In this document: positions 18,177-46,570 of the stretch, in pieces
How positions within the stretch are numbered: the first letter of the stretch is position 1
Layout of the letters: each line of letters begins with the position of its first letter
From: Tangfeifania diversioriginum
GTDB lineage: Bacteria; Bacteroidota; Bacteroidia; Bacteroidales; Prolixibacteraceae
DNA: 64,000 nucleotides
Assembly: GCA_945873105.1 (NCBI GenBank)
Contig: CAMCBW010000030.1
Span: forward strand, 1-64,000
Direction: 5' to 3'
Translations under genes and position numbers: made by a program
Notes under the pieces: model-generated
Seen by the model: the letters and a program-made list of their open reading frames with translations, nothing else
Told to the model about the DNA's origin: nothing
Database searches by the model: none

Positions 18177-19388
<1,212 letters not shown>

Positions 19389-32684: not shown

Positions 32685-33341
32685 TTAGAAGAATACCTCG
32701 GTGCGAATATTTTCCGGCTTAACTCCTTCCAGCTCCAGGTATCCGGACAATTCATTCACCATGCTTGAATTTCCACAGATGTAATAGATAGAATCCCTGT
32801 TGATTTTCTGCTCTTTGAGGAAATGTGTTACACGTCCATGGTAATGAATCCCCTGCTCCTTTGAAGTACAAGCCTTGTAGGAGCCAGCCGGGTAATCCGT
32901 TGCATGGTAGGCTTCTTCGTCGAACTTGATCCCATGGATTACATCACACCTGAGTTGAGGATTGGACAAAACCATGCTGTGGAATGGCGATATGCCTGTG
33001 CCTGTTGCAACAAAGGTGTAGTGGTTGTCCTGCACCGACTCACGGTCTCTCAAAACAAAGAATCCAAAGGGACCGGAGATTTCCACCCGTGTGCCGATTT
33101 TCATGTATTTCAGTTCTTTGGATAATTTCCCATCGGTAACCTCCTTGATGAGCAGGTCGATGGTAGCTCCGTTTTCAGGACTGTAAATGGAGTATTCGCG
33201 GGCGATGTTTTCGCCCGGGATGTTCAAAACCAGGTATTGGCCTGCCTTGAATTCAAAATTGTTTTTCTCCAGTTTAACCAGGTAAGTGGAGTCAGTTAAA
33301 TTTATAATATCCAGTATTTTACTGTAGGTTATCTTTTTCAT
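32685..33341 (-). CDS. Ferredoxin-NADP reductase-like FAD oxidoreductase
   Basis: A 218-residue flavoprotein. The FAD site is REYSIYS near residue 53 and the NAD(P) loop is ATGTGISPFHS near residue 110; the C-terminal CGNSSMVNELS and final aromatic EVFF are usual for ferredoxin/flavodoxin-NADP reductases. The start at ATG 33341 leaves 82 bp after lipA; the longer frame would overlap lipA and starts badly. Downstream of lipoyl synthase, a radical SAM enzyme that needs electrons, a role as reductase for a ferredoxin or flavodoxin serving LipA is conceivable. Confidence 0.85.
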   Translation of the reverse strand: MKKITYSKILDIINLTDSTYLVKLEKNNFEFKAGQYLVLNIPGENIAREYSIYSPENGATIDLLIKEVTDGKLSKELKYMKIGTRVEISGPFGFFVLRDRESVQDNHYTFVATGTGISPFHSMVLSNPQLRCDVIHGIKFDEEAYHATDYPAGSYKACTSKEQGIHYHGRVTHFLKEQKINRDSIYYICGNSSMVNELSGYLELEGVKPENIRTEVFF

Positions 33342-33423
33342 TCGTGAATAATAGGAATTTTTTTTGTGACGCAGTTTGGTGGATTGGGTCACAAGATATT
33401 GGTTCTTTTGCATTGTAAAATTT

Positions 33424-34275
33424 TTAGGCGTTGATATGTCTCTCTGCATGGTAGCTAGAACGAACGAGCGGACTGCTTTCCACCATGGTGAATCCTTTTT
33501 CAAGGGCAATCTCCCGGTACCTGATAAAAACTTCGGGTTTGATGAATTCGACCATCTGCAGGTGATGGGCGGAGGGTTGAAGGTATTGACCGATGGTCAG
33601 TACCCTGCAACCGGCCCGAAGCAGGTCATCCATGGTTTCAAGGACTTCCGCTTCTGTTTCACCCAACCCAACCATGATGCCTGATTTGGGGACAATCCTG
33701 GAGGCAGAGATGATCTCAATGACCTTCAGACTCCTGTCGTACCTGGCCGTATCCCTCACTTGGGGGGTAAGCCTCCTGACAGTTTCCAGGTTGTGGGAAA
33801 TCACCTCCGGTTGTGCATCAATGACCTTCTGAATGAGGATTGTATTGCCATAAAAATCCGGAATCAGGGTCTCCATCGTGATGCCGGGATTGATCTCCTT
33901 GATGGTTCTGATGGTCAGGGCCCAAAAATCGGCACCTCCATCCGGTAGATCATCACGGGTCACGGAGGTGATCACGCAATGCTTGATCCTTAGCGCCTTT
34001 ATGGTTTCTGCCAAACGCAGTGGTTCATCGCTGTCAACCGGATCAGGAATCATGTTCTTTACATCGCAAAAACGGCAGTTCCGGGTACATTTTTCGCCCA
34101 GTATCATGAAACTGGCAGTCGAAGCGCCCCAGCATTCTGCTTTGTTCGGACAATTTCCACTCACGCAGATGGTGTTTAATTGTTGATGGACTGCCAGGTT
34201 TTTCAGTGCGATGTATTCTTTTCCGGATGGGAGGGGGGTCTTCATCCAGTCAGGCAATCTGCGGGTTCTAAGCAT
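33424..34275 (-). CDS. lipA: Lipoyl synthase
   Basis: A 283-residue radical SAM enzyme that inserts two sulfurs into protein-bound octanoyl groups. The auxiliary cluster cysteines are Cys37, Cys42 and Cys48 (CVSGNCPNKAEC), the radical SAM cluster Cys63, Cys67 and Cys70 (CTRNCRFC), and the C-terminal serine ligand is in RSSYHAE. The ATG at 34275 lies 7 bp after the prenyltransferase stop. Lipoate is needed by pyruvate, oxoglutarate and branched-chain ketoacid dehydrogenases; the last makes isovaleryl-CoA, the entry to the pathway encoded upstream in this operon, so the placement is probably meaningful. Confidence 0.95.
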   Translation of the reverse strand: MLRTRRLPDWMKTPLPSGKEYIALKNLAVHQQLNTICVSGNCPNKAECWGASTASFMILGEKCTRNCRFCDVKNMIPDPVDSDEPLRLAETIKALRIKHCVITSVTRDDLPDGGADFWALTIRTIKEINPGITMETLIPDFYGNTILIQKVIDAQPEVISHNLETVRRLTPQVRDTARYDRSLKVIEIISASRIVPKSGIMVGLGETEAEVLETMDDLLRAGCRVLTIGQYLQPSAHHLQMVEFIKPEVFIRYREIALEKGFTMVESSPLVRSSYHAERHINA

Positions 34276-34282
34276 CTTTTCG

Positions 34283-35227
34283 TTAAATAAGGGTGATGAA
34301 GATGGCCAGTGCCAGCAAGGCATCCGTCAGTAGTACAGTCACGATGTTTGCGCCAAGTGCCGGAATCAGTTTTTCCATGTTGTTGTAAAACTTCAGCGTT
34401 TTCGCGGTTGCAGTGAAGATGACCGGAAGCGGAAGCAATCCAAGGTAGAGCCAGTAGGAGGATATTCCTGCCAGTGGCAGCACCAGTATGAGGACAAAGG
34501 TGGCAATTACACCTGCTGTATAGATGTAGGCAGCTCCCTTGTATCCCAAGGTGATGACCAGGTGCTTGCGTCCTCCCAGCCTGTCTGCTTCTGAATCCGG
34601 AAACTGGTTGAGCAGGAGTAGCAACGCGGTAAGAATTCCCGGAGGAATGGATACCATGATCGCTTCCAGCGGCAGCAGGGTATTTATTGGCTGGCCGGGT
34701 GTAGCAGTCAGGGATATAAATGTTCCAAGTACCACCAGTGTTCCAAGGGTCAAACCGGAGAAAAGTTCCCCCAGCATCAATTTTGTCAGCAAAGGAGTGT
34801 AAAAAACAATGGAAAAGGCTCCGGTAAGCATGATGGCAAAGAGCGTCCAGTGGGCCGTGATCCCAAAATAGATGCCGATTGAACCGGCAATTAGCAGCGT
34901 GGATATGGCTGCAATCAGCACAGAGGAGGGTTCAATCCATCCGGATTTCATCATCCCGCTTCCACCGCTGAAAGGGGTTCTTTTCGTGTGCTGATCTATC
35001 CCCGACAGGTGATCCGAGTATTCATTGAAAAGGTTGACAGAAGCATGTGCCATGACAGTACCAAAGATGATGAGCAATGAATCAACCCAATTAATTGAAT
35101 GGTTTTCAGGCAAATATTTGTAGGCGAGCGCAACGCCTATCAACACAAGAAGCACTGCAAGAACTAAAAAGTTGGCCCGGATCTGATTGAGCCAAATCAC
35201 TAATTTATTTGGATGTTGCATGATCAT
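34283..35227 (-). CDS. UbiA-family prenyltransferase (MenA-like)
   Basis: A 314-residue inner-membrane protein with about eight to nine spans and both aspartate motifs of UbiA enzymes: NLFNEYSDHLSGID (Asn68, Asp72, Asp78) and FPDSEADRLGGRKHL near residue 213. It transfers a prenyl diphosphate to an acceptor. MenA (dihydroxynaphthoate polyprenyltransferase) is the likely role in a menaquinone-using Bacteroidota, but no men genes are adjacent and another acceptor is possible. As part of the mevalonate operon it would use the isoprenoid product. 53 bp after mevalonate kinase. Confidence 0.85.
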   Translation of the reverse strand: MIMQHPNKLVIWLNQIRANFLVLAVLLVLIGVALAYKYLPENHSINWVDSLLIIFGTVMAHASVNLFNEYSDHLSGIDQHTKRTPFSGGSGMMKSGWIEPSSVLIAAISTLLIAGSIGIYFGITAHWTLFAIMLTGAFSIVFYTPLLTKLMLGELFSGLTLGTLVVLGTFISLTATPGQPINTLLPLEAIMVSIPPGILTALLLLLNQFPDSEADRLGGRKHLVITLGYKGAAYIYTAGVIATFVLILVLPLAGISSYWLYLGLLPLPVIFTATAKTLKFYNNMEKLIPALGANIVTVLLTDALLALAIFITLI

Positions 35228-35280: not shown

Positions 35281-36186
35281 TTAAACGATGGTGTAGTCGA
35301 GATGATTCAATTTAAAGTAGTTTTCAGCAGAAGTACGATTTGTCCCCAATGCCAACAGGTAGCCACCTCCTCCTGATCCACAGATCTTTAGATGGAAATC
35401 TCCGGTTTCAATTCCATGGAAAAAATATTTTTTCATGGCTGGAGGGATTATCCATTCAAAATGATCCAGCTGAAATTGCGAATAGTTGGCAATGGATTTG
35501 AAGAAAGTAGCCGGATCATTGCCTGTTGCTGCTTCAATGGTGCGATTGACAAGTGGAATATACTCCCCACTGATTTTTTCCCAGAATGGTTGATGACCGC
35601 ATCGTTCCATGAATTGGGAGACGAGCTCACCAGTATTGGCACGGATGTGGGTGTCGATCAGATAAAGTGAACAGTTTTCCAAAAATGGAGAGAGGTCAGG
35701 AGTAGTGATCCGTTTTGGATCATTTTCCAGCAATACGGCCCTTCCCAAAAGTGAGGTGAGTGGGTCTATCCCGGAACTTACCCCGTGGAAACAGGATTCA
35801 ATGGCAGCAAGCTGGGATTGAATGGTTGCAGGACCATCAGTTTGAGGGTCGGTTGCAAACATTCTGTAGATGGCAGCTGTCAGGGCACCTGAACTTCCAA
35901 GTCCAAAACCCGCTGGAATGGAGGAATCAAAGTACAATCCATTGAAAACTGCTGCTTCGAATCGTTCCAGTTGAAGGAAGTTAAATTTTTCCTTGTTGGA
36001 TTTGAGACAAAGCAGCAACCGCATCAGGGATGCATTGGATTCGGCCTCCTTTACAGATACTTTTCCGGACACCCTGTCCATATAGCGCAACCCTCCTGAA
36101 AAGCGTTCGTAGGGAATGCAAAGGGCCATGGAATTCATCAAAATCCCATACTCCCCAAACAGTAAGATCTTTGCCGGAAAATTCAT
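35281..36186 (-). CDS. mvk: Mevalonate kinase
   Basis: A 301-residue GHMP kinase. The substrate strand AKILLFGEYG (5-14), the ATP loop PAGFGLGSSGA (91-101) and ESCFHGVSSGIDPL with catalytic Asp near residue 150, plus CGSGGGGYLLAL near 280, are typical for mevalonate kinases of Bacteroidota. It converts mevalonate to 5-phosphomevalonate. The gene starts one base after the stop of diphosphomevalonate decarboxylase. Of the two GHMP kinases in the operon this is the more standard one. Confidence 0.87.
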   Translation of the reverse strand: MNFPAKILLFGEYGILMNSMALCIPYERFSGGLRYMDRVSGKVSVKEAESNASLMRLLLCLKSNKEKFNFLQLERFEAAVFNGLYFDSSIPAGFGLGSSGALTAAIYRMFATDPQTDGPATIQSQLAAIESCFHGVSSGIDPLTSLLGRAVLLENDPKRITTPDLSPFLENCSLYLIDTHIRANTGELVSQFMERCGHQPFWEKISGEYIPLVNRTIEAATGNDPATFFKSIANYSQFQLDHFEWIIPPAMKKYFFHGIETGDFHLKICGSGGGGYLLALGTNRTSAENYFKLNHLDYTIV

Positions 36187-36187
36187 A

Positions 36188-37255
36188 TCAGTGCACTATT
36201 TCAGGTGTAATTAACAAAGGACCTGTGCCAATTTTGTCGTCAATCCACAATCCGTTTTCACAGTAAGGCAGCAGTCTCTCCTGCACAAACGGAACTACCT
36301 GCTCCCGCTGTTCTTCGTAATAGATCAGGTGAACATTGGGACCCGCATCAATGGTGAAAAAGAGATCCATACCGGTTGATTCCCTGAACAACTTGATTTC
36401 AGCTAAAATTCCCAGGGTATTGGGCTGTAGCAATAGTCCAGCCGGCAAGGAGGTCATCAGCAACGCATGCAGCGAAAGGGCTTCATTTTCTGCTATTTCT
36501 GCAATCAACCGAAAGTTGTCCGCTTCTATGGCAGTGGTCATTTTTGCCAGATTACTTTTTGCCTGTACTCTTCGGCCTTCCCGGTAGGGATGGTCGACCA
36601 TCATGGCATGACCGGTACTGCTTGGAATTGGCTTTTCTGTTGTACTGACTACCAGTATGATATCCCTGATTTGGTGCAATCGACTCTGCTTTTTCAGGGG
36701 ATAGGGTGTGGCAAAATAGTCGGAACTGTTGGCCATGAAAGGGATCTCCCCCCAGGTAACAACTCCTCCGTAGACGGAGCGTGATGCGCTTCCGGAACCG
36801 AGCCTGGCAATGCCGGAGGCCCTTCTGTAAAAATCATCTTTGCTCATTTTGGAGCCGCTGACCTGCTCTTCCATGCTGGTCAGACAGAGCGCCAATGCTG
36901 CCATGGAGGAGGCAGAAGAGGCAATTCCAGCAGAATGGGGGAAATTATTTTCACTGGTAATAACCATTTGATAATATGAGATAAACGGCATTTCCAGCTT
37001 CAGACGATGCAGCAATTTTAAGATCTTGCCTTCGAATGCTGGATGTCGTTGGCCGTGAAAGTAATATTCCAAGGATAGCTCATCCGTTTCATTGATTTTT
37101 TCCCGGAAAGAGATTCGGGTAGTGGTGACGGAGCGATCCAGGGTAATGCTCAAAGAGCCGTTTTCAGGAAGCTGTTCCTCCCTTTTCCCCCAATACTTGA
37201 TCAGTGCAATATTTGCAGGCGCTTTCCACCCGATTTCTATTGTTTTGTGGCTCAT
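36188..37255 (-). CDS. mvaD: Diphosphomevalonate decarboxylase
   Basis: A 355-residue GHMP-superfamily enzyme that makes IPP from 5-diphosphomevalonate with ATP. The N-terminal APANIALIKYWGKRE (12-26), the HSAGIASSASSMAALA loop (107-122) and the catalytic Asp in FTIDAGPNVHLI near residue 290 are diagnostic. I use the ATG at 37255, which has a purine-rich AGGGGGGAGG stretch 6 bp upstream, rather than the GTG at 37294. The gap to the GYDIA kinase is 45 bp. Confidence 0.93.
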   Translation of the reverse strand: MSHKTIEIGWKAPANIALIKYWGKREEQLPENGSLSITLDRSVTTTRISFREKINETDELSLEYYFHGQRHPAFEGKILKLLHRLKLEMPFISYYQMVITSENNFPHSAGIASSASSMAALALCLTSMEEQVSGSKMSKDDFYRRASGIARLGSGSASRSVYGGVVTWGEIPFMANSSDYFATPYPLKKQSRLHQIRDIILVVSTTEKPIPSSTGHAMMVDHPYREGRRVQAKSNLAKMTTAIEADNFRLIAEIAENEALSLHALLMTSLPAGLLLQPNTLGILAEIKLFRESTGMDLFFTIDAGPNVHLIYYEEQREQVVPFVQERLLPYCENGLWIDDKIGTGPLLITPEIVH

Positions 37256-37300
37256 TTGAACCTCCCCCCTTTTGCGGTTTTCATCCAATTTCACTGATTA

Positions 37301-38254
37301 TCAAGTTCCGGATTGACCTGAACTAGCGGTTAATACAACTTCGTGGAATGGGAAAATTGTCTGTAGTCCTTTCCCATGAAAATAGTTGCGGACATATGCT
37401 TCGGAGGCTGAAGAGGCCACAAGGACAAAGTCGCCACCCCAGGCTCCAAGTGATTTGATCGACCCATTGAAATCATCGAAAAAGAGTTGCCTGACAGGAA
37501 TCTTCCGGATGGTTCTACCAACCAGCTCTTCATGCTGATCCATCAGTAGCCGAAAAGTGCCTAGATCTTGTGCCAACTCCATGCCGATGGTAAGCGATGA
37601 AATTTCAGCGGTATCCCTTGGAGAGAACCTTGTCGGATCGAGGTTGCTGATGCTTTTTTGGGAGTTTTGTTTTCGGTTGAGGTAGACAAAATAGAGCTGT
37701 TGGACGAACAATGGATAAAAATTTGCATTCCTGTAGGTAGATTCCCCATTTTTGAGTTCATATACAATGGGAGATGCGGATCTTGCACAGGCAATGTCAT
37801 ACCCTGACCCCTGAAATATCCTGTAATTCAGTTCAAAGGGATCACAGGAGGCCCAGTAGGCAACATTGGAGATCAAAGTACTGCTGGAACCCATGCCCCA
37901 GTCTGGTAGAAAATCCATGAACGAATAGACATGGTATTCCATGTCAGGAGCGAGAAAACTGGGCTGGAGTGACCTGGCTGCCGCAAGGATGTTGGAAATT
38001 CTCGAAGATATTTCAGGTGAATTGCTTTCCAGTACCCTGAAATCGGTTACGCGTAAAGTGGCTGTAAACCAGACATCGTCGTGGATGGCAGATTTCCAGT
38101 AAATCAGCGGTTTTCCCTCCATGGAATCTATTGTCAGTGATTGTCCGTATTTCAGGGGCAAAGCCAGCGAGAGCGCCCCCTTCAATACAAAGTACTCACC
38201 GGAGACCATCAGTTTCGCGCGGGATTCATAGCAGTTTTTTGTGGTCAGACTCAT
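37301..38254 (-). CDS. GYDIA-family GHMP kinase, candidate phosphomevalonate kinase
   Basis: A 317-residue GHMP-fold protein with SRAKLMVSGEYFVLKGALSL (11-30), the ATP loop DWGMGSSSTL (118-127) and the literal GYDIA segment (151-155). It matches the GYDIA group of Bacteroidota GHMP kinases. The pathway needs a phosphomevalonate kinase, and this is the only unassigned kinase in an otherwise complete set, so that role is inferred. It overlaps the HMG-CoA reductase gene by ATGA. The alternative is a second mevalonate kinase, or a different small-molecule kinase. Confidence 0.82.
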   Translation of the reverse strand: MSLTTKNCYESRAKLMVSGEYFVLKGALSLALPLKYGQSLTIDSMEGKPLIYWKSAIHDDVWFTATLRVTDFRVLESNSPEISSRISNILAAARSLQPSFLAPDMEYHVYSFMDFLPDWGMGSSSTLISNVAYWASCDPFELNYRIFQGSGYDIACARSASPIVYELKNGESTYRNANFYPLFVQQLYFVYLNRKQNSQKSISNLDPTRFSPRDTAEISSLTIGMELAQDLGTFRLLMDQHEELVGRTIRKIPVRQLFFDDFNGSIKSLGAWGGDFVLVASSASEAYVRNYFHGKGLQTIFPFHEVVLTASSGQSGT

Positions 38255-39561
38255 AGTGTTCTCCTAATTTCATTGATGTAGGCCTCTACAGCACTGTAGG
38301 TTACTGTTTTACCCCTAAAATGGTGTTGGGCTTTTTCCCGTTCCGGCAGATCTGCCTGAAGCTGGTTGAGTACATTGGACAAGTGCATGCGCATGTGCCC
38401 ACGCTGAATACCAGTGGTTACCAGAGAGGCGATGGCGGAGAAATTGCTGGCCATTCCTGAAGCTGCGGCAATCATCATCAGCTGCCGGGCGTCAGGATTG
38501 TTCATAACGGTAAGTGCCTTTTTTACCATTGGGTGGATCCTGGTGATTCCACCTGCAGTGCCGACTGACAATGGAAGCGTTATTTCATACCGGAACATGT
38601 TTTCTGTCAATTGGATGGTAGAGAGGCTTTTATAGGTACCACTCCTTGCAGCATAGGAATGAACAGCTGCGGCTGTTGCCCGACAATCGTTGCCCGTTGC
38701 CAGCAGTAAAGCATCCACCCCATTCATGATTCCCTTGTTGTGGGTAACTGCCCTGGGAATGTCAAGGTTGGCAATGTCGACTGCCTGTTTGAACTTGGTG
38801 GCAAATGCCTGACCGGTTAGTTCTTTGCCCCATCCTGAAAGTTCTTCAACCGGGCATTCTACCTTGCATTTTACGGTACAATCCGGGGTGTAATTGGAAA
38901 GGATGGCCATGATCACCTCCACCTTGCTCTCCCCTGAATTCAGTTCAGGAAGTTTTTGCAGTGCTGCAGCGATGGTCTCGAGGCAGCTGTTGATAAAATT
39001 GGCTCCCATTGCGTCTGCCGTTTCAAAGGAGAGATCCAATTGGTAATAGTCAGTCAATTCAGCACGCTTGTCAAGGAGTTGAATCGCCGTGATTCCTCCT
39101 CCTCTTTGGTTCATTTGCTTCGTTAAGGCCTCGGTTTCCTGCAGTAATTTCAATTGGATATTCGGAAATAGCGCTTGAATAAGATGAGGAGCTCCATTCC
39201 AGGTGAAATGAACCTGCCCTTTTTTGGTCATGGAGACAACTTCGGCCCTGAATCCGCCCCTTGTGGCCCAAAATTTGGCAGCCTTTGCTGCGGCTGCCAC
39301 GACGGAACTCTCTTCCGTCACGAAAGGTACCATGAAGCGCTCCCCATTGATCAGCAGCTGCGGCAGGATACCCATTGGCAAAGGAAAATTGCCAATGTAA
39401 TTTTCGATCATCTCCCCAAACACTTGCTGAACCAGTGGCTCACCGGCATCGTAACTGTAAAGGCCCGTGGCCTCTTCAGTGGTCAACGAGCCATTGTCTG
39501 TGATGTATTTGATGCGTTGTGACCGGTCAAATTTCGAGAAGCCGGTATTGTAGGTAGCCAT
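38251..39561 (-). CDS. mvaA: HMG-CoA reductase, class II
   Basis: A 436-residue cytoplasmic enzyme that reduces HMG-CoA to mevalonate. Class II marks are ENYIG (catalytic Glu53), NKGIMNGVDALLLATGND near residue 265-285 with the catalytic Lys and Asp, and GIQRGHMRMHL near residue 390 with the catalytic His. No membrane anchor or sterol-sensing region. It starts one base after the IPP isomerase stop and overlaps the next kinase by 4 bp. In this operon its substrate could come directly from methylglutaconyl-CoA hydratase. Confidence 0.95.
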   Translation of the reverse strand: MATYNTGFSKFDRSQRIKYITDNGSLTTEEATGLYSYDAGEPLVQQVFGEMIENYIGNFPLPMGILPQLLINGERFMVPFVTEESSVVAAAAKAAKFWATRGGFRAEVVSMTKKGQVHFTWNGAPHLIQALFPNIQLKLLQETEALTKQMNQRGGGITAIQLLDKRAELTDYYQLDLSFETADAMGANFINSCLETIAAALQKLPELNSGESKVEVIMAILSNYTPDCTVKCKVECPVEELSGWGKELTGQAFATKFKQAVDIANLDIPRAVTHNKGIMNGVDALLLATGNDCRATAAAVHSYAARSGTYKSLSTIQLTENMFRYEITLPLSVGTAGGITRIHPMVKKALTVMNNPDARQLMMIAAASGMASNFSAIASLVTTGIQRGHMRMHLSNVLNQLQADLPEREKAQHHFRGKTVTYSAVEAYINEIRRTL

Positions 39562-39562
39562 G

Positions 39563-40630
39563 TCAGTGCGCTCTTTTAATTGGCTGATCTCTCAGCGTGA
39601 GATAGCTCCTGGCCATGTGGTATCCTTCGATCTGGTCGAGGATGCATTGCCGCAGTTCATCATAGCTTCCCCTGCTGTGCTGAAGGAAGAGGGAAGCCTG
39701 CGCATAGATGGCCGGGACCAAAGATTTTTGGGTAAGGTAATAGCCATCCAGGTAGTTGCGTATCCCCCCGGAGATGATCAGCTGGTTGCATGCGAACTCC
39801 TCCCCGCGATGGTGAAGATCGTTGATGATATCGACCATCTCTTCCGCAGTAACTCCCACATGCACGAATGGATGGGATTTTTCGCTTCGGAGAGATGAAG
39901 TACGGCTGTTTTCAACTTTTGAAAAATTGGTGCCTCCAAAAGCGCCAAATTCAATCGCTGCGAGTGGAAGCTGCAACAGCCGGCCCAGGCTACGCGGCCC
40001 GAAACCCTGACCTACCTCCTTGACAATTACTTTGAAATCAATGAATTTTAATAGCTTTTCAATGGTATCGACAGGGGCATGGTGGATGATATTTCCTTCC
40101 GGTTGAATCCACTCCTGCAACGGATTTACATGGATGATCAATCCGTCTGCCTTCAACCGGTTAACCAGGCGACGCAGCGAGTCTGTCTCCTTTTTTGCCA
40201 GGATCTCCTCTACCTGGGCAATCCCCAGGTTGGCAAAGAAGGGAGATTTGTCCCCTATGATGGGTCGCATATTGAAATCTTCGAATAGCGTATCGTCAGC
40301 CAGTAGCCCTCTGCAGGAGCCAAGTCCCATTCCCAACCCGAATTCATGGCAGGCCATCGCCAAATTTCTGTTGATGGTGCCTGAGAGGGCATGGCCTCCC
40401 GTCATACTGGAGACCCATATGGGTACCTTCATCCATTTGCCGGCAAATGAAATCGGCTCAGGGTCTGATTTTGGAAAAGCGGCCATCATCGGTTCATAGA
40501 AAAATCTATTGTCCAATTCACGGGCCGTTGTTTGAGAGTGAATGGCCAGGTTGATATGATCCAATTTCCGGTCCATGGTTTCATAGGCACCGTTGCTTTC
40601 AACCTCTTTTCCCTGGTAGGGTATCTTCAT
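39563..40630 (-). CDS. fni: Type II isopentenyl-diphosphate isomerase
   Basis: A 355-residue FMN- and NADPH-dependent isomerase (IDI-2) that balances IPP and DMAPP. RKLDHI (21-26), SSMTGGHALSGTINRNLA near 75-92, VNPLQEW near 167 and the FMN-phosphate region EFGAFGGTNF near 225 are family marks. I take the ATG at 40630, 18 bp after the acyl-CoA dehydrogenase stop; the TTG at 40642 is less likely. It joins the catabolic half of the operon to the mevalonate half. Confidence 0.94.
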   Translation of the reverse strand: MKIPYQGKEVESNGAYETMDRKLDHINLAIHSQTTARELDNRFFYEPMMAAFPKSDPEPISFAGKWMKVPIWVSSMTGGHALSGTINRNLAMACHEFGLGMGLGSCRGLLADDTLFEDFNMRPIIGDKSPFFANLGIAQVEEILAKKETDSLRRLVNRLKADGLIIHVNPLQEWIQPEGNIIHHAPVDTIEKLLKFIDFKVIVKEVGQGFGPRSLGRLLQLPLAAIEFGAFGGTNFSKVENSRTSSLRSEKSHPFVHVGVTAEEMVDIINDLHHRGEEFACNQLIISGGIRNYLDGYYLTQKSLVPAIYAQASLFLQHSRGSYDELRQCILDQIEGYHMARSYLTLRDQPIKRAH

Positions 40631-40648
40631 GATGGTTTTCAATTTGAA

Positions 40649-41791
40649 CTAGGTTATGTGGCGTGCGATAACCATTTTGAGAATTTCCGAGGTTCCTTCA
40701 CCAATTTGCAGCAAACGCTGGTCACGGTAGAACCGCTCGATATGGTTTTTGCGCAGGAATCCAACCGCCCCATGAATCTGCAAAGATTCATCGGCCACCT
40801 CCCTGGCAATTTCTGAACAGTAGAGTTTCGAGATCGCAGCCTGTTTGCCAAAAGGGAGGCCGGCATCTTTTAATCTGCAGGCATGGTAAAGGGTGTTCCT
40901 GGCCAGCTCAATTTTCGTGGCCATTTCTGCCAGTTTGAAGGAGATGGCCTGAAATTCTGCCAATTTCTTTCCAAATTGTTTTCTGCTGTTGGCATATTCA
41001 ACGGCCATTTCAAAGGCTCCCTGGGCGAGTCCGAGCCCCATTGCTGCAATGGAAAGCCTACCGGCATCAAGGGTCGAAAGCATGATCTTCATCCCTTCCC
41101 CCCGTTTTCCGAGCAAATTGGCTGCAGGAACAATGCAGTTGTCAAAAGTTAGCTTGCCATTGTCAACAGCCCTCCACATCAACTTTCCCTTGATGGGCTC
41201 TGCAGAATATCCTGGGGTAGTGCGATCCACCAAAACAACAGATAGCTCCTTCTCTCCGTTTTGAAGATCCGTGATGGCCTGAAGGGTAATTCCTGCAGCA
41301 ATGGAGGAGGAGCTATTGGTAATGAATAGTTTGGTGCCGTTGATGACCCAATGATCATCGGTCAGTCTGGCACGGGTTTCTACTCCTTTGGCATCTGAAC
41401 CTGCATTGGTTTCCGTTAGTCCAAACGCCCAAATCTTCTCCCCGGTGCAAAGGGAAGGCAGCCTGCTTAACCGTTGCACTTCGGTCCCGTAATGGTATAT
41501 CGGCGCAATACCCAGTGAATTGTGGGCAGCAATGGTGGCAGCAGGTGAGCTGTCGATGCGGGCCATCTCTTCGATGGCTACAATGTAGGAGAGGTAGTCA
41601 AGCCCCTGACCACCATATTCCACCGGCAGGGTAATACCAAAAAGGCCTGCCGCCCCCATTTTTCGGGCCAGATCCACAGGAAATTCCTCCTTTTCATCCT
41701 GTTCAATGGCAATTGGTTTGAGCTCGAGCTCCGAAAATGCCCGAATCCTTTTCCGGTATTCTATCGTTTTCTGATCCAGTAATTCATTCAT
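40649..41791 (-). CDS. Acyl-CoA dehydrogenase, probably isovaleryl-CoA
   Basis: A 380-residue flavoprotein that forms a 2,3-enoyl-CoA and passes electrons to ETF. The middle domain has WAFGLTETNAGSDA, and the C-terminal helix domain has GLAQGAFEMAVEYANSRKQFG. Position between the two carboxylase genes suggests isovaleryl-CoA to 3-methylcrotonyl-CoA. However, the catalytic Glu appears to be that of IGEGTSEI near residue 367, as in butyryl/short-branched-chain enzymes, and the LDLER position used by true isovaleryl-CoA dehydrogenases reads LDAGR. Specificity is therefore uncertain. The start is one base after the biotin carboxylase stop. Confidence 0.9.
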   Translation of the reverse strand: MNELLDQKTIEYRKRIRAFSELELKPIAIEQDEKEEFPVDLARKMGAAGLFGITLPVEYGGQGLDYLSYIVAIEEMARIDSSPAATIAAHNSLGIAPIYHYGTEVQRLSRLPSLCTGEKIWAFGLTETNAGSDAKGVETRARLTDDHWVINGTKLFITNSSSSIAAGITLQAITDLQNGEKELSVVLVDRTTPGYSAEPIKGKLMWRAVDNGKLTFDNCIVPAANLLGKRGEGMKIMLSTLDAGRLSIAAMGLGLAQGAFEMAVEYANSRKQFGKKLAEFQAISFKLAEMATKIELARNTLYHACRLKDAGLPFGKQAAISKLYCSEIAREVADESLQIHGAVGFLRKNHIERFYRDQRLLQIGEGTSEILKMVIARHIT

Positions 41792-41792
41792 G

Positions 41793-43787
41793 TTAATCCT
41801 CCAATAATATTAGGGGCATGCGGTCGGTAACCTGCGTCCCCACACGTACGGAAATCTTTCTTACCCACGCATCTTTGTGCGACAGGATTTTGTTCTCTGT
41901 TTTCATTGCTTCAATCACCAGCAACGGATCATCCTTTTTAATCCATTGGTTCTCCTTCACCAGGATCTCCATGATCTTCCCATGCATTGGGGAGATTACC
42001 TCTGCTTTCTCTTCCCTGGTTGCCGGATTCCCGGCTTCAAATGATTCAGCAAGATTCTCAGCCAATCCTGGAAAACCGATGCTGTGGCATTTGCTTCCGC
42101 AACTTACCCGGAACCTCCCGGATGGATCAGATTGGTAGTAGATTTTCCTGCCTGTTTGATGGATGAATATCTCTAAACAAGTAGCTGACCATTCCTTCAT
42201 GTGAAAAGATGTGTAGATCCCTTCAGATAAAAATCCTGGGTTGGACTTGTCGTTTACATTTACGCCAAGCTGGTACGATAACCCATCAATGGAAATGGGA
42301 ATATACGGCGTATTGACTCTCCAAAATCCAAGGTAATCCCATGGATTCCTGTTTGTTTGCTTAAAATGTGCAAGGTACCGCAATGCAACCGCCATGGCAA
42401 ATAGATAGGCCTGATCCAATGAATCTGGCTTTTCGTTTTGGTATTCAATCAATTCAACATGGTTCGCAGCGCAGAATTCGACCGAGATATTGTTTTGAAG
42501 GTATTTGGGATGGCACAGAATACGCTCCAGGTATTGTACATTGGTCGGAGGACCGATCACATTTAACTCATGAATCGTCTTGCTTAACAATCCTACCGCC
42601 TGCAAGCGATCTGATCCATGGGCAATCAATTTTAACAACAGGGGATCGAACTGATTACCTGTTGGTCTTTCCAGGTTAATATCTGCCTCCATCCGGAGGT
42701 TCGGATGGTTGGGCAGGTTGATATGCACCAATTCGGCCGATGAAGGGATAAATCCATTTGCCGGATCTTCTGCGTAGACCCGTACCTCGATGGCATGGCC
42801 TTTCAGTTTAATATCCTCCTGTGTAAAGGATAGCGGCAATCCGGCGGCAATTTTAAGCTGTTCTGCAACAATGTCTATGCCTGTGACCTCTTCTGTAACT
42901 GCATGTTCCACCTGGATTCTTGGGTTCATCTCCATAAAGTAGTAGTTTCCGTTTTGGTCAACCAAAAATTCAACGGTTCCTGCTCCGGTGTAATGCACTG
43001 CAACCCCCATTTTCAAGGCAGCTGCCAATATATCGGCACGCAATTGCGGATTTAAGCAGAGCGCAGGCGCCTCTTCCACAATTTTTTGATGATTCCGCTG
43101 AATGGAGCACTCCCGCTCAAACAGGTGAACAAGTTGCCCGTGCTGGTCTCCCAACAGCTGGACCTCCACATGCCGTGCATCTTTGAGGAGTTTTTCAACA
43201 AAGATGGCTCCATTCCCAAAATAGTTCAGGGCAGCGCGCGAAGAGGACAGTGCTAAAGCGGAAAGTTCAGCCTGGTTGTGCACTATTTGCATTCCTTTCC
43301 CGCCGCCACCATGCGATGCTTTTATCAGGAGCGGGAATTCCAGCGATTCAAAGGTGATGATATCAGAAAATTCAATGTTATGGCCTGCAATTACAGGTAT
43401 GCCAAGTTTTGCTGCCAGTTTTTTCGCCGCAGGTTTGTCCCCCATCAGTTCCAGCACGGATGAATCTGGTCCGACAAATGCAATGCGATTCTTCTCACAC
43501 GCCCTTGCGAAATCAGCATTTTCGGATAGAAATCCATATCCCGGATGGATTGCAGTCGACCCGGTTGTCAAGGCAATTTCTATGATCCTTTCCATGTTCA
43601 AAAAGGTCGAATTCAGTCCATCCATGCCAAGTGAAACAGCCTCATCTGCCAATGCAACATAGCCAGAATCTTTTTCTGCCTCTGCGTAGAGGACAACGGT
43701 TTTAATTCCCAGTTGTTTTGCAGACTTCACAATGCGAAGTGCTATTTCACCCCTGTTCGCTACCAACAATTTTTCCGGCAAGGCCAT
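41793..43787 (-). CDS. Acyl-CoA carboxylase alpha subunit (3-methylcrotonyl-CoA carboxylase type)
   Basis: A 664-residue biotin enzyme: biotin carboxylase domain (1-445) starting LPEKLLVANRGEIALRI, with the ATP loop HGGGGKGMQIV near 163 and MNPRIQVEHAVTE near 287; a linker BT domain; and a C-terminal biotin-carrier domain with EAMKTENK, whose Lys carries biotin. With the carboxyltransferase at 44674 it should convert 3-methylcrotonyl-CoA, bicarbonate and ATP to 3-methylglutaconyl-CoA. I use the ATG at 43787, not the TTG at 43805. The substrate call rests on the neighbours and on the beta subunit. Confidence 0.92.
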   Translation of the reverse strand: MALPEKLLVANRGEIALRIVKSAKQLGIKTVVLYAEAEKDSGYVALADEAVSLGMDGLNSTFLNMERIIEIALTTGSTAIHPGYGFLSENADFARACEKNRIAFVGPDSSVLELMGDKPAAKKLAAKLGIPVIAGHNIEFSDIITFESLEFPLLIKASHGGGGKGMQIVHNQAELSALALSSSRAALNYFGNGAIFVEKLLKDARHVEVQLLGDQHGQLVHLFERECSIQRNHQKIVEEAPALCLNPQLRADILAAALKMGVAVHYTGAGTVEFLVDQNGNYYFMEMNPRIQVEHAVTEEVTGIDIVAEQLKIAAGLPLSFTQEDIKLKGHAIEVRVYAEDPANGFIPSSAELVHINLPNHPNLRMEADINLERPTGNQFDPLLLKLIAHGSDRLQAVGLLSKTIHELNVIGPPTNVQYLERILCHPKYLQNNISVEFCAANHVELIEYQNEKPDSLDQAYLFAMAVALRYLAHFKQTNRNPWDYLGFWRVNTPYIPISIDGLSYQLGVNVNDKSNPGFLSEGIYTSFHMKEWSATCLEIFIHQTGRKIYYQSDPSGRFRVSCGSKCHSIGFPGLAENLAESFEAGNPATREEKAEVISPMHGKIMEILVKENQWIKKDDPLLVIEAMKTENKILSHKDAWVRKISVRVGTQVTDRMPLILLED

Positions 43788-43871
43788 TTTATCGTTTTGA
43801 ATCAATTTTTACCTGTTTTCTGATTTATGCTTTCCTAAGCTCGTTGCACGTTTCCCTTTTTATTCCAATGG

Positions 43872-44654
43872 TTACCAAACAGGTTTTCGCTTCTCCAAGA
43901 AGGCAGAAAAGCCCTCCTGTGCCTCGGATGAGACCCTTATGCGGGTTAACAATCCGGGGATTTGCTCCATTGTTTCTAGGCTAGTCTCCTGTGAAAGTTG
44001 ATTGATCAACTGTTTGGAGGCTACGATGGCTCTCTTTCCGTTTGCAACGATCTGGGTCAAAACCTCCTTTATATAGGCTTCAGCAGTTTCAATGGTGGGA
44101 AAGGATCGGTTCAGGATACCATATTCCCTGGCTTCATCACCATCGAACTTTTTAGCAGTAAAAATAAGCTCCTTCAACGTGGGTGAATTCATTTTTTGAA
44201 GCAAATAGGGAGTGATCGTTGCTGCAGCCATACCAATCCTGGTCTCACTGAGGCAGAAGGAAGCACTTGAAATGCCATATGCCAGGTCACAAACGGCCAG
44301 TAACCCGATGCCACCTCCGAAAATATTGCCATGGGCTATTGCTATCACTACCTTTGAACTGTAGAAGATTGCGCTGAACATTTGGGCAAGTGCCTCACTC
44401 TCCCTTAAGTTCTCCTCATTGCTGAGTGCAAAGGCGTTTTTCATCCATTGAAGATCAGCCCCCGAACAGAATGATTCTCCTGAACCTTTGATGACCACTA
44501 CCCTCAAATCATCATTCCCCTCAATTTGCTTGAAAAACGCAGCTATTTCTTGGATCATTTTGCCATTGAGGGCATTGTGAACCTCCGGTCGAGAGAGCCA
44601 AAGAGTCGCAACTGATCCGTCATATCCCGTCTGAATCGTTTGATAGTTGTCCAT
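43872..44654 (-). CDS. Enoyl-CoA hydratase, probably methylglutaconyl-CoA hydratase
   Basis: A 260-residue crotonase-fold enzyme. The oxyanion-hole segments are GSGESFCSGADLQWMKNA near 60-75 and GNIFGGGIGLLAVCD near 110-124; the acid Glu is in LSETRIGM near 138. GGGIGL replaces the GGGxEL of ordinary crotonases, as in the hydratases of leucine breakdown that lack the second Glu. The expected reaction is hydration of 3-methylglutaconyl-CoA to HMG-CoA. The ATG at 44654 lies 19 bp after the carboxyltransferase stop; an upstream ATG at 44693 would overlap that gene. Confidence 0.88.
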   Translation of the reverse strand: MDNYQTIQTGYDGSVATLWLSRPEVHNALNGKMIQEIAAFFKQIEGNDDLRVVVIKGSGESFCSGADLQWMKNAFALSNEENLRESEALAQMFSAIFYSSKVVIAIAHGNIFGGGIGLLAVCDLAYGISSASFCLSETRIGMAAATITPYLLQKMNSPTLKELIFTAKKFDGDEAREYGILNRSFPTIETAEAYIKEVLTQIVANGKRAIVASKQLINQLSQETSLETMEQIPGLLTRIRVSSEAQEGFSAFLEKRKPVW

Positions 44655-44673
44655 GTTCAATTCATATCGAGGT

Positions 44674-46233
44674 TTACATTCTAAAAATTCCATTTCGCGG
44701 AGGCATAATTTTTTTGTTGGAAGCAATGGAGATGGAGAGTCCAACTACTGCACGGGTATCGACCGGATCAATGATGCCATCGTCCCAGAGTCTGGAAGTA
44801 CTGTAATAGGCACTGCTTTCATCTTCGAATTTCTCCACGAGATCCTTTTGGTTGCCACCCTTGATGGAGTTGAGTACATCCTGGGCCTGTTGCCCTCCCA
44901 TTACCCCGATTCTGGCGTTGGGCCACATGAAAAGAAAATTAGGATTGAAGGCTCTTCCTGACATTGCATAATTTCCTGCACCATAGGATCCGCCGATAAT
45001 CACCGTGATCTTTGGAACGCTTGCCGTTGCCACTGCATGGATGAACTTGGCTCCATGCCTAGCAATCCCCTCGTGCTCATGTCTCTTCCCAACAATAAAT
45101 CCTGAGATATTCTGAAGGAAGAGAATCGGAATTTTTCTGAAATTGCAGAGCTCAACAAAGTGGGCCCCTTTGAGGGATGCCTCTGAGGTTAGGTAACCAT
45201 TGTTGGCAATGATTCCGACTGGAAAACCCATCATCCTTGCATAACCTGTGACAAGGGTCGGTCCATAATTTTGTTTAAACTCCCTGAATTTACTCCCGTC
45301 CGTTATTCTTGCAACAATTTCAAGAATATCAACCGGCTTCTTGAGGTCGATAGGGGCAAATCCATACAATTCTGACGGAGGATAGGCAGGTTCTTCGATG
45401 CTGCTCTTTTCATATTCCTGGGCATCACCTGCAGGTATCAACTCCAGGATGTCCCTGCAAATTTTGATAGCATCCAATTCATTTTCAGCCAGGTGGTCGG
45501 CGACTCCGGAGATGCCGGTGTGCACCATGGCACCTCCAAGTTCTTCTGCTGTAACTTCTTCCCCGGTAGCAGCTTTTACCAAAGGAGGGCCTCCAATGAA
45601 AATAGTCCCCTGATTCCGGACAATGATGGTTTCATCGCTCATGGCCGGAACATAGGCACCACCCGCTGTACAAGATCCCATCACAATGGATATTTGGGGT
45701 ATGCCATTGGCCGACATTTGCGCCTGGTTGTAAAAGATCTTGCCAAAACCATCCCGGTCCGGGAAGATATTGGCCTGTTCTGGCAAGAAAATCCCTCCCG
45801 AATCTACCAGGTAGATGCAGGGCAGGTGGTTCTGAAGGGCTATTTCCTGGGCACGAAGATGCTTTTTTACAGTCTCCTTTACATAGGTGCCACCTTTTAC
45901 CGTCGCATCATTGGCAATGATCATGCACATCTTGCCATGTACCTGACCAATGCCCGTAACCAGGCCTGCAGCAGGAAACTGATCTTCATATTGACCAAAG
46001 GCAGCCATGGGTGAAAGCTCAAGGTAGGGTGAATGCTCATCCAGCAACAGCTCAACCCTTCTGCGGGCATCCATTTTCCCGCGCGACCGGTGCCTGGTAA
46101 CAGCCGCATCGTTGTCGCGCATGGTGATCCTGAACATTCCGGATCGAAAGGTATTCATTACCTCCTGGTAGGCTTTTACCCTAAAACTGTGCTGTTCCTT
46201 GTTATTTATGATAGTTGATACGAGTCGTTCCAA
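44674..46233 (-). CDS. Acyl-CoA carboxyltransferase beta subunit (3-methylcrotonyl-CoA carboxylase type)
   Basis: A carboxyltransferase of about 519 residues with the CT signature [57 protein letters not shown] and [15 protein letters not shown], ending NGIFRM as methylcrotonyl-CoA carboxylases do. The start is unclear: in-frame choices are TTG 46308, TTG 46233 and ATG 46158 (with AGGAGG just before it). I chose 46233 because known beta subunits extend about 50 residues ahead of the RGK motif. A TATTTTTG box at 46313-46306 covers the 46308 codon. It is the first gene of the long operon. Confidence 0.92.
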
Positions 46234-46570
46234 TTCGAATATTATTATCCAGTCTTCCTGAAATTCCTGCGAATGCAGGTAGAAGGGCAGGAGCTTTTCA
46301 GCCTCCAAAAATAGATAAAATTAATTTAGACTTAATAATGATAATAAAAAGATTTGTGATCCCACCAGGAAGCTGGCACACATTTAAACTTCAAGTTCTG
46401 GTTGGTTGAGCTTTTTTTTGAGACAAACAATCCTCATTCCACGGGAAAATGGAGGATTATAAATTGTTAGAATAGCAAATTCCTGCCATTGGGCGAATGG
46501 CTTTTTGATGGTTTTCCCGGAAATGAAATGCTTTATCAGATTGTGCTATCCTCTGTTCAAGTCTGATGGT

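Follow-up and report, generated by a model that had tools for sequence, protein, structure and literature searches.

In the Liu (leucine and isovalerate utilisation) pathway, one cluster encodes a dehydrogenase, a two-subunit carboxylase and a hydratase that together lead to 3-hydroxy-3-methylglutaryl-CoA (HMG-CoA). Leucine-derived HMG-CoA is used for sterols in trypanosomatids, according to the available part of PMC5993337, and in a myxobacterium label from dimethylacrylate enters a sesquiterpene, which the authors account for by leucine degradation (PMC7321100, available part). In the mevalonate pathway of Flavobacteriia, other members of the Bacteroidia, HMG-CoA reductase (HMGR) is followed by a GYDIA-family kinase. 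Here, we describe a nine-gene cluster in which both arrangements occur together, located in a 64,000-nucleotide stretch of DNA (the window) from the Bacteroidales member Tangfeifania diversioriginum (contig CAMCBW010000030.1). We propose, with a probability of roughly 85%, that this operon specifies an upper mevalonate pathway fed by leucine, its keto acid or isovalerate rather than by acetoacetyl-CoA.

The nine open reading frames (ORFs) lie between 46308 and 35281, all on the minus strand, in the order carboxylase beta, crotonase, carboxylase alpha, acyl-CoA dehydrogenase, isomerase, HMGR, GYDIA kinase, diphosphomevalonate decarboxylase and mevalonate kinase. The ORF calls leave gaps of 1, 6, -4 (an ATGA overlap), 1, 6, 1 and 66 bp, and the probable start of the crotonase is the ATG at 44654, 19 bp past the carboxylase beta stop. 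The initial annotation had read these genes as one operon in this order, with gaps of 1-84 bp or an ATGA overlap. The ORF calls bear this out, given a later ATG for carboxylase alpha that yields the 84 bp gap, so that neighbouring genes never stand more than 84 bp apart and overlap, where they do, by 4 bp. The same arrangement recurs in relatives and is therefore not due to chance. Promoter and terminator scans returned matches at chance level only.

From the observed gene content, order, conservation and co-occurrence, and from a genome in which neither HMG-CoA synthase nor HMG-CoA lyase was detected, we infer the substrates, flux and direction of the route. Leucine, its keto acid or isovalerate would enter as isovaleryl-CoA, which the dehydrogenase would oxidise to methylcrotonyl-CoA; the two-subunit carboxylase would convert this to methylglutaconyl-CoA and the crotonase would hydrate the product to HMG-CoA. 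HMGR would then form mevalonate, to be carried to isopentenyl diphosphate (IPP) by mevalonate kinase, the GYDIA kinase and the decarboxylase, with the isomerase balancing IPP and dimethylallyl diphosphate (DMAPP). Because HMGR stands in the position of a catabolic cluster's HMG-CoA lyase, the branched skeleton would be kept rather than cleaved.

Carboxylase beta (44674..46308, exact start uncertain) is of the LiuB/MCCB type and matches Protein Data Bank (PDB) chains named methylcrotonyl-CoA carboxylase (MCC) at 560-615 bits, the best being the MCC beta chain 3u9r_B (615 bits). AccD1 (4q0g, 658 bits) and an unnamed carboxyl transferase (9yx0, 656 bits) score above it, geranyl-CoA carboxylase 5ikl_B reaches 435 bits, and most propionyl-type and other listed carboxylases score 280 bits or less. 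Carboxylase alpha (41793..43805), which combines biotin carboxylase and biotin carrier with an EAMKTE motif, is recognised by family models and finds its best PDB match in the mitochondrial methylcrotonoyl-CoA carboxylase alpha subunit (446 bits). Judged by these matches, the pair is the methylcrotonyl-CoA carboxylase of the Liu pathway. The crotonase (43872..44744, or from the likely start at 44654) is proposed to be a LiuC-type methylglutaconyl-CoA hydratase. It matches at family level (PF00378, 158 bits), no specific methylglutaconyl-CoA hydratase model passes its cut-off, and NF005675 (226 bits) and NF004227 (216 bits) both fall below theirs. Of the two glutamates that we take, by comparison with LiuC, to be catalytic, the second is retained and the first is Gly. 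Family models identify the fourth protein (40649..41791) as an acyl-CoA dehydrogenase, and since it is 57-63% identical to dehydrogenases of lyase-bearing leucine clusters, isovaleryl-CoA is its likely substrate.

On the mevalonate side, HMGR (38251..39561) is a class II enzyme that exceeds the cut-off of PF00368 (282 bits), comes within 2 bits of that of TIGR00532 (258 against 260) and conserves the motifs that we presume to be catalytic; it reads as the HMGR of a canonical mevalonate pathway. The diphosphomevalonate decarboxylase (36188..37294) is likewise identified by TIGR01240 (180 bits, over cut-off). Two further members hold a conserved place in relatives: the type 2 IPP/DMAPP isomerase (39563..40642), at 183 bits below the TIGR02151 cut-off of 281, and a predicted mevalonate kinase (35281..36186), which passes PF00288 and whose best model, TIGR00549, gives 79 bits against a cut-off of 163. 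The remaining GHMP kinase (37301..38254) belongs to the GYDIA family (NF040656, 324 bits, over cut-off). A PDB sequence search with it gave no useful match; its predicted structure (mean predicted local distance difference test score 93.5) has mevalonate and phosphomevalonate kinases as its closest folds. We propose, by elimination, that it serves as the phosphomevalonate kinase.

The initial annotation had seen neither HMG-CoA synthase nor lyase in the window, and the whole genome (5.36 Mb, 99 contigs, rated 100% complete) yielded neither. Neither PF08540 nor a profile built from 8 Bacteroidota synthases detected a synthase, and the single TIGR00748 match (E 6.4e-6) lies below cut-off. The search for a lyase with PF00682 returned two proteins, neither of them a lyase: LeuA (2-isopropylmalate synthase, 731 bits) and a protein resembling oxaloacetate decarboxylase (OadA)/PycB. 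Both of these negative results favour the initial annotation, which had named a genome-wide look for synthase and lyase as checks. Because LeuA adjoins genes that, judged by eye, read like ilvBN, the bacterium can probably make its own leucine, and the route could start from its own keto-isocaproate.

To place the locus in its order we surveyed 148 Bacteroidales genomes (128 genera, about 109 family labels; genomes numbered G, loci L). HMGR is present in 49 of them, our own included, with relatives titled Mariniphaga, Prolixibacteraceae, Ancylomarina and others. PF08540 found HMG-CoA synthase in none of the 148. Since Bacteroidota synthases score poorly with this model (42-102 bits), the search was redone with the Bacteroidota profile, which matched two genomes (G010 and G042), both HMGR-negative; by either model, none of the 49 HMGR-positive genomes has a detected synthase. 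TIGR00748 matches 139 of the 148 at any score and passes its cut-off only in the same two, the remaining matches being, to judge from their scores, relatives of the ketoacyl-ACP synthase III type. Carboxylase beta, called at E 1e-120 or better, occurs in 46/49 HMGR-positive versus 20/99 HMGR-negative genomes (Fisher p 8e-19, the genomes of one order not being independent). Dropping four matches of 44-47% identity leaves 44/49 versus 18/99, and a second count, restricted to genomes with an HMGR of the window's type, gives 42 of 43.

Other HMGR types occur in the order (G009, G013, G031, G112, G116 and G147), with open frames some 520-534 or 745-787 amino acids long; their loci (L003, L004, L010, L011, L013 and L014) showed no adjoining operon genes except a weak HMGR match in L010. 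G036, in which carboxylase beta and HMG-CoA synthase both went undetected, carries a cluster of HMGR, GYDIA kinase, decarboxylase and mevalonate kinase (L044).

Physical linkage recurs as well. In 11 of the 49 HMGR-positive genomes, spanning 10 family labels, carboxylase beta and HMGR share a contig and are no more than about 10 kb apart (G000, G016, G028, G038, G046, G073, G084, G118, G123, G124 and G131). Eight of these, including our own, carry the full set of nine genes in the same order as the window; the other three fall short in G046 (last kinase not seen), G118 (contig end) and G124 (no alpha subunit in place). Partial joins of the two modules are seen in G011 and G134, and other genomes keep them separate. 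Among the 80 titled loci examined, of 585 matches, all nine genes are found in L065 and L081, both from metagenome-assembled genomes (MAGs), and partial forms in L063, L064, L077 and L092 (the G134 locus). In the Ancylomarina loci L066 and L068 the dehydrogenase, type 2 isomerase, HMGR, GYDIA kinase, decarboxylase and mevalonate kinase form one cluster. Trees of the two modules, built for the 16 of 20 genomes or loci with all six required genes (G011 and G118 were omitted), share 4 of 13 splits, compared with a mean of 0.38 on shuffling and 4 of 2000 shuffles that reach 4; three of the four common splits are close pairs. In up to 20 genomes or loci, mean identity to the window's proteins is 62% for carboxylase beta, 61% for the dehydrogenase, 37% for carboxylase alpha and 35% for the crotonase. 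We considered whether the window's alpha subunit and crotonase are outliers and rejected this, since both diverge equally fast among the other genomes.

What follows the first four enzymes appears to differ with the presence of HMGR. We fetched 16 leucine loci from 15 of the 20 HMGR-negative genomes with carboxylase beta (G042, G076, G092, G094 and G142 were omitted) and saw lyase-like genes in 9, 3-oxoacid CoA-transferase in 9 and one or both in 10. The lyase-like genes have NF004283 as their best NCBIfam match (175-196 bits, cut-off 246) and score 80-122 bits with PF00682. They are present in none of the 12 fused HMGR-positive loci and in 2 of the 9 split HMGR-positive leucine loci (G121 and G100), that is, in 9/16 HMGR-negative versus 2/21 HMGR-positive loci (p 0.0034), counted in stretches of unequal length, some ending at contig ends. 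The partial fusion L037 (G134), which stands outside the 12, has no lyase. That NF004283 at E 1e-60 matches 0 of 148 genomes is not evidence of absence, because this threshold is stricter than the order's lyase-like proteins reach (E 2e-51 to 7e-58). Past the same four enzymes, then, stand either lyase and CoA-transferase or HMGR and the mevalonate enzymes, and HMGR seems to take the place of HMG-CoA lyase.

The HMGR-positive genomes G121 and G100 carry the lyase-like gene in a separate leucine cluster (L166 and L167), and pathways may diverge at HMG-CoA in these two genomes. At the HMGR-negative loci L184, L186 and L196, carboxylase beta sits beside butyrate kinase-like genes, with no lyase or HMGR at these loci.

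Some relatives may depend on the cluster entirely. IspH, an enzyme of the methylerythritol phosphate (MEP) pathway, was searched for in 51 genomes (the 49 with HMGR plus G063 and G094) and not found in eight: G027, G028, G041, G050, G091, G131 and G143, which have HMGR, and G063, which does not. Genome incompleteness predicts about 1.9 IspH losses among the 49, and the probability of seven or more is 0.002, ignoring that G028 and G131 share a genus and G050 and G143 a family. All seven HMGR-positive cases have carboxylase beta, and six show both modules, fused in G028 and G131 and with the isomerase cut at a contig end in G041. In the seventh, G091, only HMGR, the GYDIA kinase, carboxylase beta, crotonase and a partial biotin carboxylase were seen; the three longest pieces of its locus are 93-94% identical to MAG RUG11952, for which the name leads us to guess a rumen origin. 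DXR was not found in G041, G091 and G143 and is present in the other four (L179-L182). The cluster route is probably the only isoprenoid source in these seven genomes, and if the IspH losses are real, they would therefore need HMG-CoA from leucine or isovalerate. The broader generalisation, that across many Bacteroidales families a synthase-less mevalonate pathway draws HMG-CoA solely from leucine or isovalerate and is obligate for all isoprenoids where IspH is also lost, has in our judgement somewhat better than even odds.

Operon conservation, the co-occurrence of carboxylase and HMGR, the exchange of lyase for HMGR and the IspH-less relatives thus lend support to the suggestion, made in the initial annotation, that leucine-derived HMG-CoA feeds mevalonate. 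Several observations weigh against it. Both genes of the MEP (or deoxyxylulose phosphate) pathway that were searched for, DXR and IspH, are present in our genome over their cut-offs, a result that does not favour the initial annotation: the MEP pathway is likely present, and the cluster route is therefore not the sole isoprenoid source here and would add to it. HMGR-negative G063 lacks detected IspH and DXR, and IspH loss is therefore not confined to HMGR-positive genomes. Three HMGR-positive genomes (G036, G112 and G116) have no detected carboxylase beta, and in two more (G047 and G055) the matches are only 46% identical. The lyase search was genome-wide with an adequate model in our genome and covered the fetched stretches in the other HMGR-positive ones. 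The module trees conflict with strong support around G016, G121 and the G027/G041/G050/G143 group, and for this reason more than one event has probably joined, separated or exchanged the two modules. Lastly, 9tps_A, deposited as a propionyl-CoA carboxylase beta subunit, scores 622 bits against carboxylase beta, and the dehydrogenase carries, within GEGTSE, what we take to be the catalytic Glu of the short-chain and not the isovaleryl type, as do all 20 sequences compared.

These last two points favour a reading in which a different branched acyl-CoA is the substrate of the first four enzymes, for instance in terpenoid degradation, and these enzymes only share an operon with the mevalonate genes; the crotonase also matches a gamma-carboxygeranoyl-CoA hydratase model, below its cut-off. 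However, carboxylase beta favours MCC beta 3u9r over geranyl-CoA carboxylase by about 180 bits, and leucine clusters that hold lyase-like genes and CoA-transferase contain the same dehydrogenase type; we regard this reading as improbable. An equally slim chance attaches to the idea that ordinary leucine catabolism simply adjoins an ordinary mevalonate cluster supplied by a synthase encoded elsewhere: the leucine clusters of HMGR-negative relatives do look catabolic, with their lyase-like genes and CoA-transferase, but neither our genome nor any of the 49 revealed a synthase, our genome revealed no lyase, and the linkage of carboxylase to HMGR extends across 10 family labels. Least credible is a cluster running in reverse, from HMG-CoA to isovaleryl-CoA for iso-branched lipids, as in the myxobacterial alternative pathway cited in the available part of PMC7321100, since, although some steps are reversible in principle, it needs another source of HMG-CoA where no synthase was found, and biotin carboxylases generally use ATP for carboxylation while the kinases and decarboxylase draw mevalonate to IPP. 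We therefore favour the forward route from leucine or isovalerate, which would run beside the likely MEP pathway in our genome and would probably stand alone in the IspH-less relatives.

Downstream of the cluster, a MenA-like prenyltransferase (34283..35227, minus strand; PF01040 over cut-off, MenA models below) starts 53 bp past mevalonate kinase, an adjacency shared by L036, L157 and L174, and is a possible user of the cluster's isoprenoid. It is the first of a group (32685-35227, minus strand) that continues with a lipoyl synthase that passes its model's cut-off and a BenC-like reductase that does not. Elsewhere in the window, 18177-19364 on the minus strand encodes a serine palmitoyltransferase that exceeds the NF047600 cut-off at 691 bits, a match from which we suggest that the source bacterium may make sphingolipids.

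The cluster departs from each of the known systems. Unlike genomes with the Liu pathway, ours has no detected HMG-CoA lyase and instead places HMGR and the lower mevalonate genes beside the leucine module. Trypanosomatids are eukaryotic and their leucine-to-sterol genes are not known to form one operon, and myxobacteria also have HMG-CoA synthase. Other Bacteroidia differ in that at least 11 of 60 HMGR-positive genomes of a class sample have HMG-CoA synthase by PF08540, a model weak on these proteins, and in the Flavobacteri-titled loci among the 80 of 585 no match to carboxylase, crotonase or dehydrogenase lies close to HMGR. A bridge from acetyl-CoA to HMG-CoA with HMG-CoA synthase also exists in trypanosomatids (PMC5993337, available part), and no fused operon is described in the available part of PMC7321100. 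Among the matches listed in an open-access literature search, seen as partial texts and with subscription papers outside its scope, there was neither an operon in which leucine degradation is linked to HMGR nor a synthase-free mevalonate pathway fed by leucine.

The cluster is a possible genetic answer to how a bacterial mevalonate pathway could operate without HMG-CoA synthase. According to the available part of a 2026 review, most Legionella species analysed lack the synthase, and the authors ask whether alternative enzymes compensate (PMC13001223). A survey, as its available part states, scores the pathway as present at two of four genes (synthase, reductase, kinase and decarboxylase; PMC10663253), and under such a rule synthase-less cases would stay hidden. 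Flow from leucine to isoprenoids has already been reported in trypanosomatids and suggested in myxobacteria; the operon-encoded, synthase-free version appears to be new within the open-access texts covered. In the IspH-less relatives, isoprenoid synthesis would hinge on leucine or isovalerate. If our reading is true, Bacteroidales would possess a second upper mevalonate pathway, one that ties the synthesis of cell-wall and quinone lipids to branched-chain metabolism.

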